Positions 1,264 to 4,558 of a stretch of DNA of 12,156 bases are shown here, piece by piece (the first letter of the stretch is position 1; each line of letters starts with the position of its first letter). The notes below the pieces were generated by a model. The model ran no database searches. It worked only from the letters and a program-made list of their open reading frames with translations, and had not been told where the DNA came from. The stretch lies in the NCBI GenBank assembly GCA_029560455.1, contig JAKQKW010000421.1, forward strand, positions 1-12,156. The letters run 5' to 3'. The stretch is from Candidatus Rifleibacteriota bacterium. GTDB taxonomy: Bacteria > Riflebacteria > Ozemobacteria > Ozemobacterales > Ozemobacteraceae. The position numbers were made by a program, and so were the translations under genes.

Positions 1264-2007
1264 ATGAAACTGCACGAACGGTTGATTGAGATTGCGACAC
1301 CCTGGTCAGAAGGCAGAACCGTTAAAGATCTTCGTTTTGGTCTCGGTTACAGCTGCGCTGAACTCGATGACGGGCGCAGCGGCATTGCCTGTACACTGCT
1401 CTTCGAAAATTCCGGGAGCTGTACGCATGTGGCCGCTGCCGGTCAGATCGCCGGCAGCCCGGCATCAGAGATTCTTGGCTGGTTGAAACATGACAACGAC
1501 CTCGAAAGGGCCGCCGGACTTGCTGTTTTTAACGCGCTGAACGCCAGTCACAGCCGCAACTTTATCGAGGGCGAAGCGATTTCGCTGCTCAAAATCGACA
1601 AAAACGACCATGTTGTTATGGTTGGCTTCTTTGGCCCGGTCATACCCGATATAAAGGCTACCGGCTGCCGTTTCGAAATCGTCGAACTGAACGCTGACAA
1701 GCCGGGAGTCATAACTCCCGAACAGGGCTTCAAAGCTCTCGCCGAGTGCGACGTGGCGATTATCACCTCGACCAGCATTATCAACGGCACCTGCGACGGT
1801 CTGTTGCAGGCCCTCAAGCGCAATCGCGCCGCGGTAATGCTTGGGCCATCGACGCCAATGAGCCCCGAAGCTTTCGCCGGCACACGCATTACCCAGCTTA
1901 GCGGTTCTTACGTGCTCGATAAAGCGCGAATTCAGACAATTGTTTCTGAAGGCGGCGGCACCAGACTTCTGAAGAAGCACCTGCGCTTCAGTAACGTCAT
2001 GGTGTAA
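1264..2007 (+). CDS. DUF4213/DUF364 domain protein (putative heavy-metal chelation family)
   Basis: This 247-residue cytoplasmic protein matches the DUF364 family in length and layout. An N-terminal DUF4213-like part (about 1-90) contains FGLGYSCAEL and a small-residue-rich stretch. A Rossmann-like DUF364 part (about 105-240) has the motifs VGFFGPV (120-126), the TSTSIINGTCD loop (168-178) and LGPSTPMSP (193-201). The family has a proposed role in binding metal ions or tetrapyrrole-like ligands, and I know of no proven reaction. No signal peptide or membrane segment is seen. The ATG is chosen for the GGGAGAG six bases upstream. The gene is followed after 31 bases by the sigma-54 activator, so the two are probably cotranscribed. 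Family assignment is good; biochemical role is open. Confidence 0.8.
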   Translation: MKLHERLIEIATPWSEGRTVKDLRFGLGYSCAELDDGRSGIACTLLFENSGSCTHVAAAGQIAGSPASEILGWLKHDNDLERAAGLAVFNALNASHSRNFIEGEAISLLKIDKNDHVVMVGFFGPVIPDIKATGCRFEIVELNADKPGVITPEQGFKALAECDVAIITSTSIINGTCDGLLQALKRNRAAVMLGPSTPMSPEAFAGTRITQLSGSYVLDKARIQTIVSEGGGTRLLKKHLRFSNVMV

Positions 2008-2038: not shown

Positions 2039-3544
2039 ATGCTGGCCAGTGAAATGTCTCTGACTCTCAGTCCTGAACGGGCTATGGGCATCGTTCTCGA
2101 TGCCATTCAGGAAATTATTCCGTTCGAACTGGCTGTCATCTTAAGCCTTGAAAAGAACAATACCCTGCAGGTTCGTTACTGCAGCGGAGTTCTCTGCTGC
2201 GAGAAGCTGGCAAATCAGACGCTGACCATCGATGACCGGCCAGATATAAAAATGGCCCTGCGGCGCGGCGAGGTTACTCTCGTTAAAGAAACAGCAGATC
2301 CTCATCACAAAGATACCTACGATGGTCTCGTCGATATTCCGGCCGGGCACTCATGTATGCTCACTCCTCTCAAAGCTGGCGGCGAAGTAATCGGCCTGAT
2401 GACCCTCGATCATCGTCAGTGCGGCCTGTTTACGCCCGAAAGGGTTAAATTCGCCGGTATTCTTTCTCAATTGCTGGCAATCGCTTTGGCGCAGTCTCTG
2501 CAGACCGAAAGCCTGCTGAGCGAAAAGACCGCCCTGCTTTATGAAAGAAATTCTTTTGTTGCCGATCTTGCAAGGGTAGCAGGCGGCCTTGTCGGCAATT
2601 CACCAGCCTGGAAGCAGGTTCTCGAAAAAATCAGGCTGGTAGCTCCGACCGATTCGCATGTGATGATTCTTGGCGAGACCGGCACCGGCAAAGAGCAGGT
2701 TGCCAAGGCGGTGCATGCTCTTTCGGGCCGCTCGAAGCAACCGTTTATAACCCTGAACTGTTCGGCCCTGAATCACAATCTTGCCGAAAGTGAGTTGTTC
2801 GGCCACGAAAAGGGCGCGTTTACCGGTGCGGTTGCGGCACGCAAAGGCCGCTTCGAGCTCGCAGCCGGCGGCACGCTTTTCCTCGATGAGCTTGGCGATC
2901 TGCCGCTCGAAACTCAGCCAAAGCTGCTGCGCGCCATTCAACAGGGCACTTTTGAACGACTCGGCGGCGAAAAAACATTGCAGGCCGACGTTCGCATCAT
3001 CAGCGCTACCAATGTCAGGCTCGAAGAAAAGGTCAGGCAGGGCAAATTCAGAGAAGACCTCTATTACCGGCTCAATGTTTTTCCGATCGTGGTGCCGCCG
3101 CTGCGCGAGCGCCAGAGCGATGTCGTTCTGTTGGCGCATCATTTTGTCGAGAAAATGCGGTCGCGTTTCGGTTACGACCGGGTTATGCTTTCGGGACTGG
3201 CGATCAGAAAGCTGCTCGAAAACGGTTGGCCAGGCAATGTCAGAGAACTCCAGAATACCATTGAAAGGGCTTTGATCAATTGTCGTGGCGGCCAGATAGA
3301 GGCTGAGCACATATTTTTCGAATCGCAGGCAAAGTCGCCAAAGCTGGAAAAACCCGTATCGTCTGCGTCAGATTCCGGCGTTTCAGACTTCGAAACCGAA
3401 GTGGGGCGTATCATCGCCCGGGCTTTGCAGCAGTGTGGCGGCCGCATCTACGGCAAGGACGGCGCAGCGGCCCTGCTGAATCTCAAGCCAACCACCCTGC
3501 AAAGTAAAATTAAAAAACTCGGTCTTGATAAGAAGCCTGATTGA
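2039..3544 (+). CDS. Sigma-54-dependent activator, GAF-AAA+-Fis (NorR/FhlA type)
   Basis: This 501-residue enhancer-binding protein remodels RNA polymerase holding sigma-54. Residues about 14-155 form a GAF sensor domain. Residues 183-412 are the AAA+ domain with Walker A GETGTGKE (212-219), the sigma-54 contact loop GAFTGA (259-264), Walker B LFLDE (280-284) and the arginine-finger region [11 protein letters not shown] (338-348). Residues 450-497 form a Fis-type HTH ([20 protein letters not shown]), closest in style to FhlA and NorR. There is no receiver domain, so it likely senses a ligand directly. In the GAF domain Asp92, Asp95, His104, Cys106 and Asp124 line up, allowing a 3-residue gap, with the iron ligands proposed for E. 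coli NorR as I remember them, suggesting NO or redox sensing (inference). ATG 2039 is preceded by a GGGGA. It is the second gene of an operon with DUF364; a likely target promoter lies 300 bases downstream. Confidence 0.9.
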
Positions 3545-3734
3545 TTGGGCGATAATGTTCTTGATGAGTCGCTGTCGTTGCTTTTACGACCGTTGTAATC
3601 TTAAAACATGTTTCTGGTAGTCATATTTGGTTTCCTTATGAGTAATGTAAAAGGTGGTCTGGCCTGCTGGCAGAATAGCGCACCGGATTTTTGCAGACTC
3701 AACTGAAATCGATTTCATAAAGACTTCAAGCGCC
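3545..3734. other. Intergenic stretch, no gene recognised
   Basis: This is the upstream half of the 357-base gap between the activator and the peroxiredoxin. I see no convincing gene. The only structure is a weak hairpin near 3570-3588 (GTCGT...ACGAC, seven-base loop) without a T-run, so it is not a clear terminator for the activator operon. The regulatory sites begin at 3735. Confidence 0.5.
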
Positions 3735-3788
3735 ACCGAAATCTGGTTGATACCGAAATATCGGTGTGAAAAACAACGATATTTCGGT
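3735..3788. promoter_or_regulatory. Enhancer-like cluster: three ACCGAAAT-type sites upstream of peroxiredoxin
   Basis: Three related 14-base sites lie here: ACCGAAATCTGGTT (3735-3748), ACCGAAATATCGGT (3752-3765) and AACGATATTTCGGT (3775-3788, the reverse of the second with one mismatch). Sites two and three also form a 12-base perfect inverted repeat around a 13-base loop. A further CGGT-AAAA-ACCG inverted repeat lies at 3798-3809. The cluster is about 80-135 bases before the predicted start of the sigma-54 transcript, the usual distance for activator enhancers. The candidate binder is the activator encoded just upstream (inference). Confidence 0.6.
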
Positions 3789-3843
3789 GTAAACGTCCGG
3801 TAAAAACCGTTTAAACTCGCTTTTGAGGCTGATTGTAGTAACA

Positions 3844-3858
3844 TGGCATGGCAGTTGC
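3844..3858 (+). promoter_or_regulatory. Sigma-54 (-24/-12) promoter of the peroxiredoxin gene
   Basis: TGGCAT-GGCAG-TTGC matches the sigma-54 consensus TGGCAC-N5-TTGC with one mismatch. The invariant GG (3845-3846) and GC (3857-3858) have the required spacing. Transcription would start near 3870, about 30 bases before the peroxiredoxin ATG. Confidence 0.7.
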
Positions 3859-3901
3859 GATTGCTTCGGCGTTGATAAATTAAACCCCGGAGGAATTAAA
3901 A

Positions 3902-4558
3902 ATGGAAAACGTTCAAAATTGCAGTATGCCTCTTCTTGGCGACAGAATGCCCGAATTCACCGTTCTGACCACGCACGGAATGAAAAGCTTTCCGAATGAT
4001 TATGCCGGAAAATGGATTGTTCTGTTCAGCCACCCTGGCGATTTTACCCCGGTCTGCACCACTGAATTCGTCGCTTTTGCAAAACGCGAAGCCGAATTTA
4101 AAAAACTGAATGCCGAACTGGTTGGCCTGTCGATTGACCAGGTGTTTTCTCACATCAAATGGGTCGAATGGATCGAAGAAAAACTGCAGGTCAAGATTCC
4201 TTTCCCGATCATCGCTGATGATATGGGCAATGTCGCTAAAAAGCTTGGCATGCTCCACCCTGGCAAAGGGTCAAATACTGTCAGAGCCGTATTTCTTATC
4301 GATCCAAACGGCGTTACCCGCCTGATGATCTACTACCCCCAGGAAATCGGCCGTCAGGTCGACGAAGTCCTGCGTGCTCTCAAAGCCCTGCAGGTCGCTG
4401 ACGCTCACAAGGTCGCTCTTCCCGAAAACTGGCCGAACAATGAGCTTCTCAAAGACAAGGTAATTGTGCCGCCGGCCAAAGACGTTGAAACCGCCGCCAA
4501 ACGCAAAGGCGAAAAGAACAGCTACGACTGGTGGTTTGTTTACAAAGACCTCAAATAA
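3902..4558 (+). CDS. Peroxiredoxin, Prx6/1-Cys-like subfamily
   Basis: This 218-residue thiol peroxidase reduces hydrogen peroxide, organic peroxides or peroxynitrite. An AhpC/TSA thioredoxin-like fold (about 9-150) carries the active-site motif PGDFTPVC with the peroxidatic Cys52 and the conserved Thr49. The C-terminal 1-cysPrx_C domain ends in [10 protein letters not shown], as in the archaeal/Prx6 type. The only other cysteine is Cys7. The C-terminal resolving cysteines found in many archaeal relatives are absent, so it may act as a 1-Cys enzyme needing an outside thiol, or use Cys7. No signal peptide is seen, so it is cytoplasmic. The start follows a GGAGG (3889-3893) eight bases upstream. 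It is preceded by a -24/-12 promoter and enhancer-like repeats and followed by a terminator, so it is monocistronic and probably controlled by a sigma-54 activator. Confidence 0.93.

Follow-up and report, generated by a model that had tools for sequence, protein, structure and literature searches.

A putative sigma-54 switch of the NorR kind conserved at peroxide-defence genes in three bacterial phyla

Bacterial peroxide sensing is mostly told as OxyR and PerR, and PerR in Bacillus is a repressor of ordinary promoters. FhlA of E. coli is a sigma-54 activator with GAF domains and a C-terminal HTH, and the iron ligands of NorR are R75, D96, D99, H111, C113 and D131. According to one account, the three enhancer sites of NorR are essential and R75 is a postulated iron ligand (PMC2941729). 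In Proteobacteria, the peroxiredoxin COG0450 belongs to a predicted sigma-54 regulon, to which it was assigned by promoter scoring and where it clusters with NifU and hydrogenase maturation factors; the main text of that paper returned no hit in a term search for NorR, Dps, catalase or peroxide (PMC12316311). Among the papers listed by searches of the open-access literature, we found no description of a sigma-54 switch of this kind.

The locus analyzed here lies in a stretch of 12,156 bases from Riflebacteria (the window) and is like E. coli NorR and its target norVW in that a GAF-AAA+ sigma-54 activator, with an HTH seen by alignment, is found with three sites upstream of a −24/−12 promoter, the third site lying 75 bp from the −12 element in the window and 74 bp in norVW. 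The sites start 17 and 23 bp apart, as compared to 21 and 24 bp for E. coli NorR, and they are ACCGAWATWTCGGT-like where those of E. coli NorR read GTN7AC. Unlike NorR, the regulator has another recognition helix, the extra residues H125 and C128, no R75, and a score below the NorR family cut-off, and the targets proposed here belong to peroxide defence whereas that of NorR is nitric oxide reductase. FhlA has a C-terminal HTH similar to the one seen by alignment in the activator but is longer (692 aa) and responds to another signal, and its long branch in the tree is not part of the family clade.

The peroxiredoxin promoter in the window

The peroxiredoxin gene had been predicted, from its upstream sequence, to be under sigma-54 control through a three-site enhancer. 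The −24/−12 box has the right GG/GC spacing, and its last base (3858) is 44 bases upstream of the A of the ATG (3902), as claimed; the predicted transcription start is near 3870. The three 14-base sites upstream of the gene were confirmed, site 1 with two mismatches to the consensus that the other two match exactly (Table 1), and their centers lie at approximately −128, −111 and −88 relative to the predicted start. The 12-base perfect inverted repeat of the original prediction is also present (3752–3763 and 3777–3788), with longer imperfect arms at 3746–3767 and 3773–3794. Loose matches in the whole window number 13 for the site (≤3 mismatches, 12.07 expected by chance) and 28 for the box (≤2 mismatches, 27.24 expected). 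Since these window-only matches are at chance level, the weight has to come from relatives; what exceeds chance is the set of exact matches as a whole, the way they are arranged and, most of all, how well they are conserved.

Table 1. Features of the window (positions in the 12,156-base stretch).
Feature	Position	Strand	Basis and remarks
DDE transposase, two pieces (adjacent reading frames)	37–1099	minus	DDE_3 and HTH_33 domains (Pfam); adjoins operon
DUF4213/DUF364 protein	1264–2007	+	Pfam
GAF-AAA+ sigma-54 activator (bEBP)	2039–3544	+	Pfam Sigma54_activat (PF00158) 1.6e-70, AAA_lid_14, GAF
Putative enhancer site 1, ACCGAAATCTGGTT	3735–3748	.	13.4 bits by site matrix; weakest in window; position conserved
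Putative enhancer site 2, ACCGAAATATCGGT	3752–3765	.	19.9 bits; matches AMCGAWATWTMGKT exactly
Putative enhancer site 3, AACGATATTTCGGT	3775–3788	.	19.6 bits; matches AMCGAWATWTMGKT exactly
−24/−12 sigma-54 promoter, TGGCATGGCAGTTGC	3844–3858	+	Sole exact TGGCAYN5TTGC match in window
GGAGG, likely peroxiredoxin ribosome-binding site	3889–3893	+	Sequence
AhpC/TSA 1-Cys peroxiredoxin, proposed regulated gene	3902–4558	+	Pfam AhpC-TSA (PF00578) 2.7e-32, 1-cysPrx_C (PF10417)

The peroxiredoxin scores 344.4 bits with NCBIfam PRK13189 (cut-off 211), and its translation agrees with the 1-Cys class, with C7 and C52 as the only cysteines and no evident resolving cysteine. Beyond it are two proteins without a Pfam match, a metallo-beta-lactamase-like protein, a chemotaxis receptor and a CoA-disulphide-reductase/rhodanese-like protein. 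The DUF4213/DUF364 gene, separated from the activator gene by a gap of 31 bases, is probably co-transcribed with it. A gene of this kind (putative heavy-metal chelation) is also found directly upstream of the activator in two other Riflebacteria loci (L002, 3603–4340; L088, 733–1473), and it was not found by tblastn in L003 or L004, so that it is absent from some activator loci. The transposase adjoining the operon is presumably of the IS630 type.

Conservation of the locus and of the array

Orthologues of the activator were assessed in 41 loci from three phyla, 34 of which adjoin a peroxiredoxin, Dps or DUF454-catalase-peroxidase gene. Two loci were excluded before counting: L111, where the contig ends and leaves no promoter, and L088, a second partial copy in G001. 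This genome bin contains two activator copies, L001 (contig C347) and L088 (C138), one cut at its start and one at its end, which represent either a paralogue or mixed strains. In a scan of genome contigs with the peroxiredoxin (best 80 of 92 relatives), four loci, L001–L004, have an activator 64–76% identical to that of the window directly upstream of a peroxiredoxin 84–88% identical, and the box and three sites lie between the genes or overlap the end of the activator gene. The gap between the two genes is 357 bases in the window (3545–3901) versus roughly 150–195 in these four. The genomes of L001–L004 are the only 4 of 39 in Riflebacteria with the activator at E ≤ 1e-140.

In Bacteroidota, sampled from the class of G007 with three candidates scored per genome listed, an orthologue was found at E ≤ 1e-130 in 17 of 391 genomes, and in 15 of 16 loci (L111 left out) it is divergent from Dps. 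Target identities in this phylum were assigned by family models for part of the loci and by tblastn for the rest. Behind Dps there is a peroxiredoxin in nine loci (L005, L007, L010, L098, L099, L101, L102, L105, L108); L100 has catalase-peroxidase at this place and L104 has catalase. In L103, DUF454 and catalase-peroxidase take the place of Dps. The array is found also upstream of Dps and, with or behind Dps, of catalase-peroxidase or catalase. A sample of 392 Spirochaetota genomes contained 20 with an orthologue at E ≤ 1e-120 (query P0042); the activator is divergent from a peroxiredoxin in 12 of these and from Dps in one. The remaining seven, five of them treponeme-like, have neither such a target gene nor the array within about 1.5 kb. 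The treponeme-like loci (L170, L173–L176) have retained the activator, but neither the array nor peroxide genes adjoin it. The P0042 query gave no match in 12 other genomes. Of 21 carrier genomes, 20 have an rpoN gene. In L145 (1–2613) and L156 (1–4633) another oxygen-linked neighborhood lies downstream of the activator, with cytochrome bd-type genes and an Rrf2 regulator; Pfam identifies Rrf2 in L145, and the other assignments were made by eye.

We trained a 14-column site matrix on 21 Riflebacteria and Bacteroidota promoters of the 34, the window included. It reads AMCGAWATWTMGTT and contains a few false sites (five training promoters were initially too short and were lengthened afterwards). 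At ≥11 bits there are 61 sites in the 21 training promoters (0.53 expected), and the 13 spirochaete promoters outside the training set have 27 (0.43 expected). With a matrix floor of 6 bits, three sites spaced at 16–20 and 20–24 bp were found in 31 of the 34 target promoters and in none of 1700 shuffled regions; the first spacing is 17 or 18 in 29 of these promoters and the second is 22 or 23 in 26. The exceptions are L007 and L161 with two sites and L168 with one. With the widest pattern, which has no computed chance rate, a −24/−12-like box is found in 34/34 promoters, and a narrower pattern finds it in 21/21 Riflebacteria and Bacteroidota promoters (0.16 expected) and in 10/13 spirochaete promoters (0.53 expected). 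Among the 16 Bacteroidota boxes, 13 have no C in the −12 GC and read TTGA, TTGG, TTGT or, in L100, TAGA in place of TTGC. Box and sites are accordingly seen in three phyla, in agreement with the conservation that the original prediction had named as support.

The distance between site 3 and the −12 element takes 18 different values up to 140 bp, and 0.7% of random sets are equally regular at a period of 10–11 bp, by a statistic that ignores the relatedness of the loci and leaves out distances above 140 bp. A period of 11–11.5 bp fits better than 10.5 bp, and the regular spacing is suggestive. In three loci, L163, L167 and L169, the distance from box to site 3 is 136, 246 and 279 bp. As a control, 71 peroxiredoxin loci without an adjacent activator (L040 and L069, with little or no upstream DNA, were dropped) contained five scattered sites in four loci within 900 bases upstream.

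Searches of whole genomes for paired sites gave a similar picture. The 17-bp pair (≤3 mismatches) occurs at one place per genome in 16 of the 21 Riflebacteria and Bacteroidota carriers, each adjoining the activator, and has no match in the other five, four of which have activator-adjacent sites, three as a triple. The 23-bp pair matched in 14/21 genomes, 13 times at the promoter and once at a stray place with three mismatches in G285. Backward control patterns matched 1 place (17-bp) and 0 (23-bp) in these 21 genomes, and 1 and 0 in the spirochaetes. The 17-bp and 18-bp pair patterns found eight places in seven of 20 spirochaete genomes, six at the activator's promoter (of 13 such promoters) and two unlinked places in G705. 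Paired sites are almost only found at the activator's promoter in the carrier genomes searched.

One of the unlinked places in G705 precedes Dps, with the box TGGCATACTTTCTGC, and the other precedes a flavodiiron protein (L202), with the box TGGCATGATATATGA, which was seen by eye and is unlisted by the box pattern. A third unlinked place, upstream of Dps in G636, came from a noisier single-site list. According to the matrix, each of these unlinked promoters has two sites instead of three. The genes at unlinked places were not sought, and they therefore serve as a partial blind check. The noisier list comes from a single-site search with one mismatch in the 20 spirochaete genomes, which gave 2–36 places per genome versus 0–16 for controls, among the matches listed, and these are mostly noise. 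Six places were chosen from the single-site matches listed as exact or paired sites: three turned out to be promoter regions, belonging to Dps in L201 and L203 and to the flavodiiron protein in L202, and three (L204–L206) are lone sites inside reading frames. The pair patterns revealed no array elsewhere in the genomes of the seven spirochaete orthologues without an adjacent target, an absence that is weak because the patterns match only 6 of the 13 spirochaete promoters beside the activator. Exact single sites in seven genomes occur at seven places, five at the activator's promoter and two inside reading frames (G002:C10, L157; G006:C76, L158), with one place for the backward control in the same genomes. 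A wider regulon in Riflebacteria and Bacteroidota was considered and is not supported, the exact single sites beyond the promoter in these seven genomes being only inside reading frames.

A regulator related to NorR

The original prediction took the upstream neighbor of the peroxiredoxin to be a sigma-54 activator, and its Pfam match identifies it as such (Table 1). Its best NCBIfam match is NorR (NF003451) with 405.9 bits, under the cut-off of 476; five relatives score 381.9 to 415.4 and E. coli NorR 822.2. NorR is also the best match for four of the five other members scanned, while the L010 protein has NifA first by a little. The window protein contains GAFTGA, as do 81 of 86 family rows in this or a close variant (five are unmatched by the pattern). 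A C-terminal Fis/FhlA-like HTH is seen by alignment; it has no Pfam HTH match in the window protein, and PF02954 is matched in P0039–P0041. The recognition helix is KPTTLQSKMKKLG-like in the alignment rows printed that reach that far.

The alignment has 86 rows, some showing the same gene twice, and 84 of them have letters at the GAF positions. D92, H104, C106, D124 and C128 are present in 84/84 of these and H125 in 81/84. The equivalents of NorR D96, H111, C113 and D131 are kept in all 84, that of D99 is D or E in 66/84, and that of R75 is D or E in 59/61 rows. At the two positions that hold C128 and H125 here, NorR has P and G. The family does not contain the full NorR ligand set. The predicted GAF model has a mean pLDDT of 85.8. 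PDB sequences yielded AAA+ relatives, none named NorR among 42 matches listed, and on the GAF side one weak match, a phytochrome-like protein.

A tree of 41 proteins sets the family apart from NorR, FhlA and two paralogues (support 89/94; midpoint root, outgroups on long branches). The Riflebacteria proteins make up a single clade (100/100), to which 11 Bacteroidota sequences are joined (98/88), a pattern that transfer between phyla would give.

Proposed mechanism, signal and alternatives

As far as computation goes, the original prediction of sigma-54 control through a three-site enhancer is supported. The architecture of the switch is well supported: the promoter, the three sites with their conservation and rarity, the target genes and the conserved residues are all computational findings. 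By analogy with NorR and other bEBPs, we infer that the 2039–3544 protein would bind the three sites between 3735 and 3788 as dimers and that its AAA+ ring would assemble on them. When the GAF domain meets its signal, the sigma-54 RNA polymerase waiting at 3844–3858 would be remodeled and the 3902 peroxiredoxin made. The signal would most likely be hydrogen peroxide or oxygen, perceived through a GAF metal/cysteine center that may consist of D92, H104, C106, D124, H125 and C128. This assignment of the signal is drawn from the target genes alone (proposed targets: Prx, Dps, KatG and catalase). The best reading as a whole, and one that we regard as probable, is that a NorR-like activator responds to peroxide or oxygen by turning on the genes of peroxide defence. 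Several observations speak against it: the Bacteroidota −12 elements that lack the C, the long distances between box and site 3 in L163, L167 and L169, the incomplete arrays of L007, L161 and L168, the seven spirochaete orthologues that adjoin neither target nor array, and the two-site arrays of the unlinked promoters.

Regulators of another kind occupy the same slot elsewhere. A FUR-family gene lies directly upstream of the same kind of peroxiredoxin or Dps-peroxiredoxin in L013, L016, L020, L023 and L025 (35 loci looked at, five genes tested; the lineages include Bacteroidales and a spirochaete). All five are FUR by Pfam, and PerR is the best NCBIfam match in 4/4 scanned, all below cut-off. 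These proteins, which are PerR by best match only, are unrelated to the activator, and their presence in this slot is a pointer to peroxide. In the Bacteroidales MAGs of L023 (1–1610) and L025 (5036–6648), a PerR-like FUR gene, Dps and peroxiredoxin form one run, the same Dps-peroxiredoxin module under another regulator.

The same switch might instead sense nitric oxide through a NorR-type iron center, with peroxiredoxin, Dps and the haem peroxidases countering nitrosative damage such as peroxynitrite. The family models, which place NorR first for the window protein and most members scanned, agree with this, as do the conserved D, H, C and D of the NorR iron ligands, the geometry, which is like that of E. 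coli norR-norV (site spacings of 21 and 24 bp, the third site 74 bp from −12), and the unlinked flavodiiron protein, for which NCBIfam gives flavorubredoxins as the best matches, all below cut-off. Nitric oxide would be in keeping with both this flavodiiron target and the NorR-like GAF, and oxygen is compatible with them as well. However, the window activator falls below the NorR cut-off, R75 is replaced and D99 is only partly kept as D or E, no nitric oxide reductase is among the adjacent targets identified, and the slot is taken by PerR-like genes elsewhere. We consider a nitric oxide sensor unlikely, if the most plausible of the alternatives.

That some other factor binds the repeats while the adjacent activator serves another promoter is very improbable. 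The seven of 20 spirochaete orthologues without an adjacent array would suit such a factor, but 34 loci of three phyla combine the activator with such sites, 31 of them with all three, sites are few and scattered in the 71 peroxiredoxin loci without the adjacent activator, and the recognition helix of the aligned HTH is as conserved as the sites. Least likely by far is that the inverted repeat at 3746–3794 is an RNA hairpin, for example the terminator of the activator gene, and the box a product of chance. Its 22-nt arms are 86% complementary and 5 nt apart, as a hairpin would have them, but no terminator is called there, the sites have the same orientation in divergent promoters elsewhere (e.g. 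L101, L104, L105), and the box is present in every target promoter; this reading was rejected.

We return to the peroxide or oxygen switch. The regulators may form a separate subfamily of sigma-54 activators, a peroxide/oxygen sensor with its own GAF metal/cysteine center that has spread among at least three phyla of mostly anaerobes and that replaces PerR/OxyR as the main local regulator of peroxide defence; for this wider reading the chances appear to us even. The sequences point to a conserved sigma-54 switch of peroxide-defence genes, of the NorR kind. It appears that, in three bacterial groups, a kind of regulator so far known for sensing nitric oxide and related signals has become a switch dedicated to genes for the removal of peroxide and oxygen, in the window a peroxiredoxin. 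If true, this would add another kind of peroxide control, covering peroxiredoxin, Dps, catalase and catalase-peroxidase and with its own enhancer code, in lineages whose oxygen defence is little studied, and it would provide an example of the retuning of a nitric-oxide-type sensor domain. The array is specific enough for predicting targets from sequence, such as Dps and the flavodiiron protein in spirochaetes.
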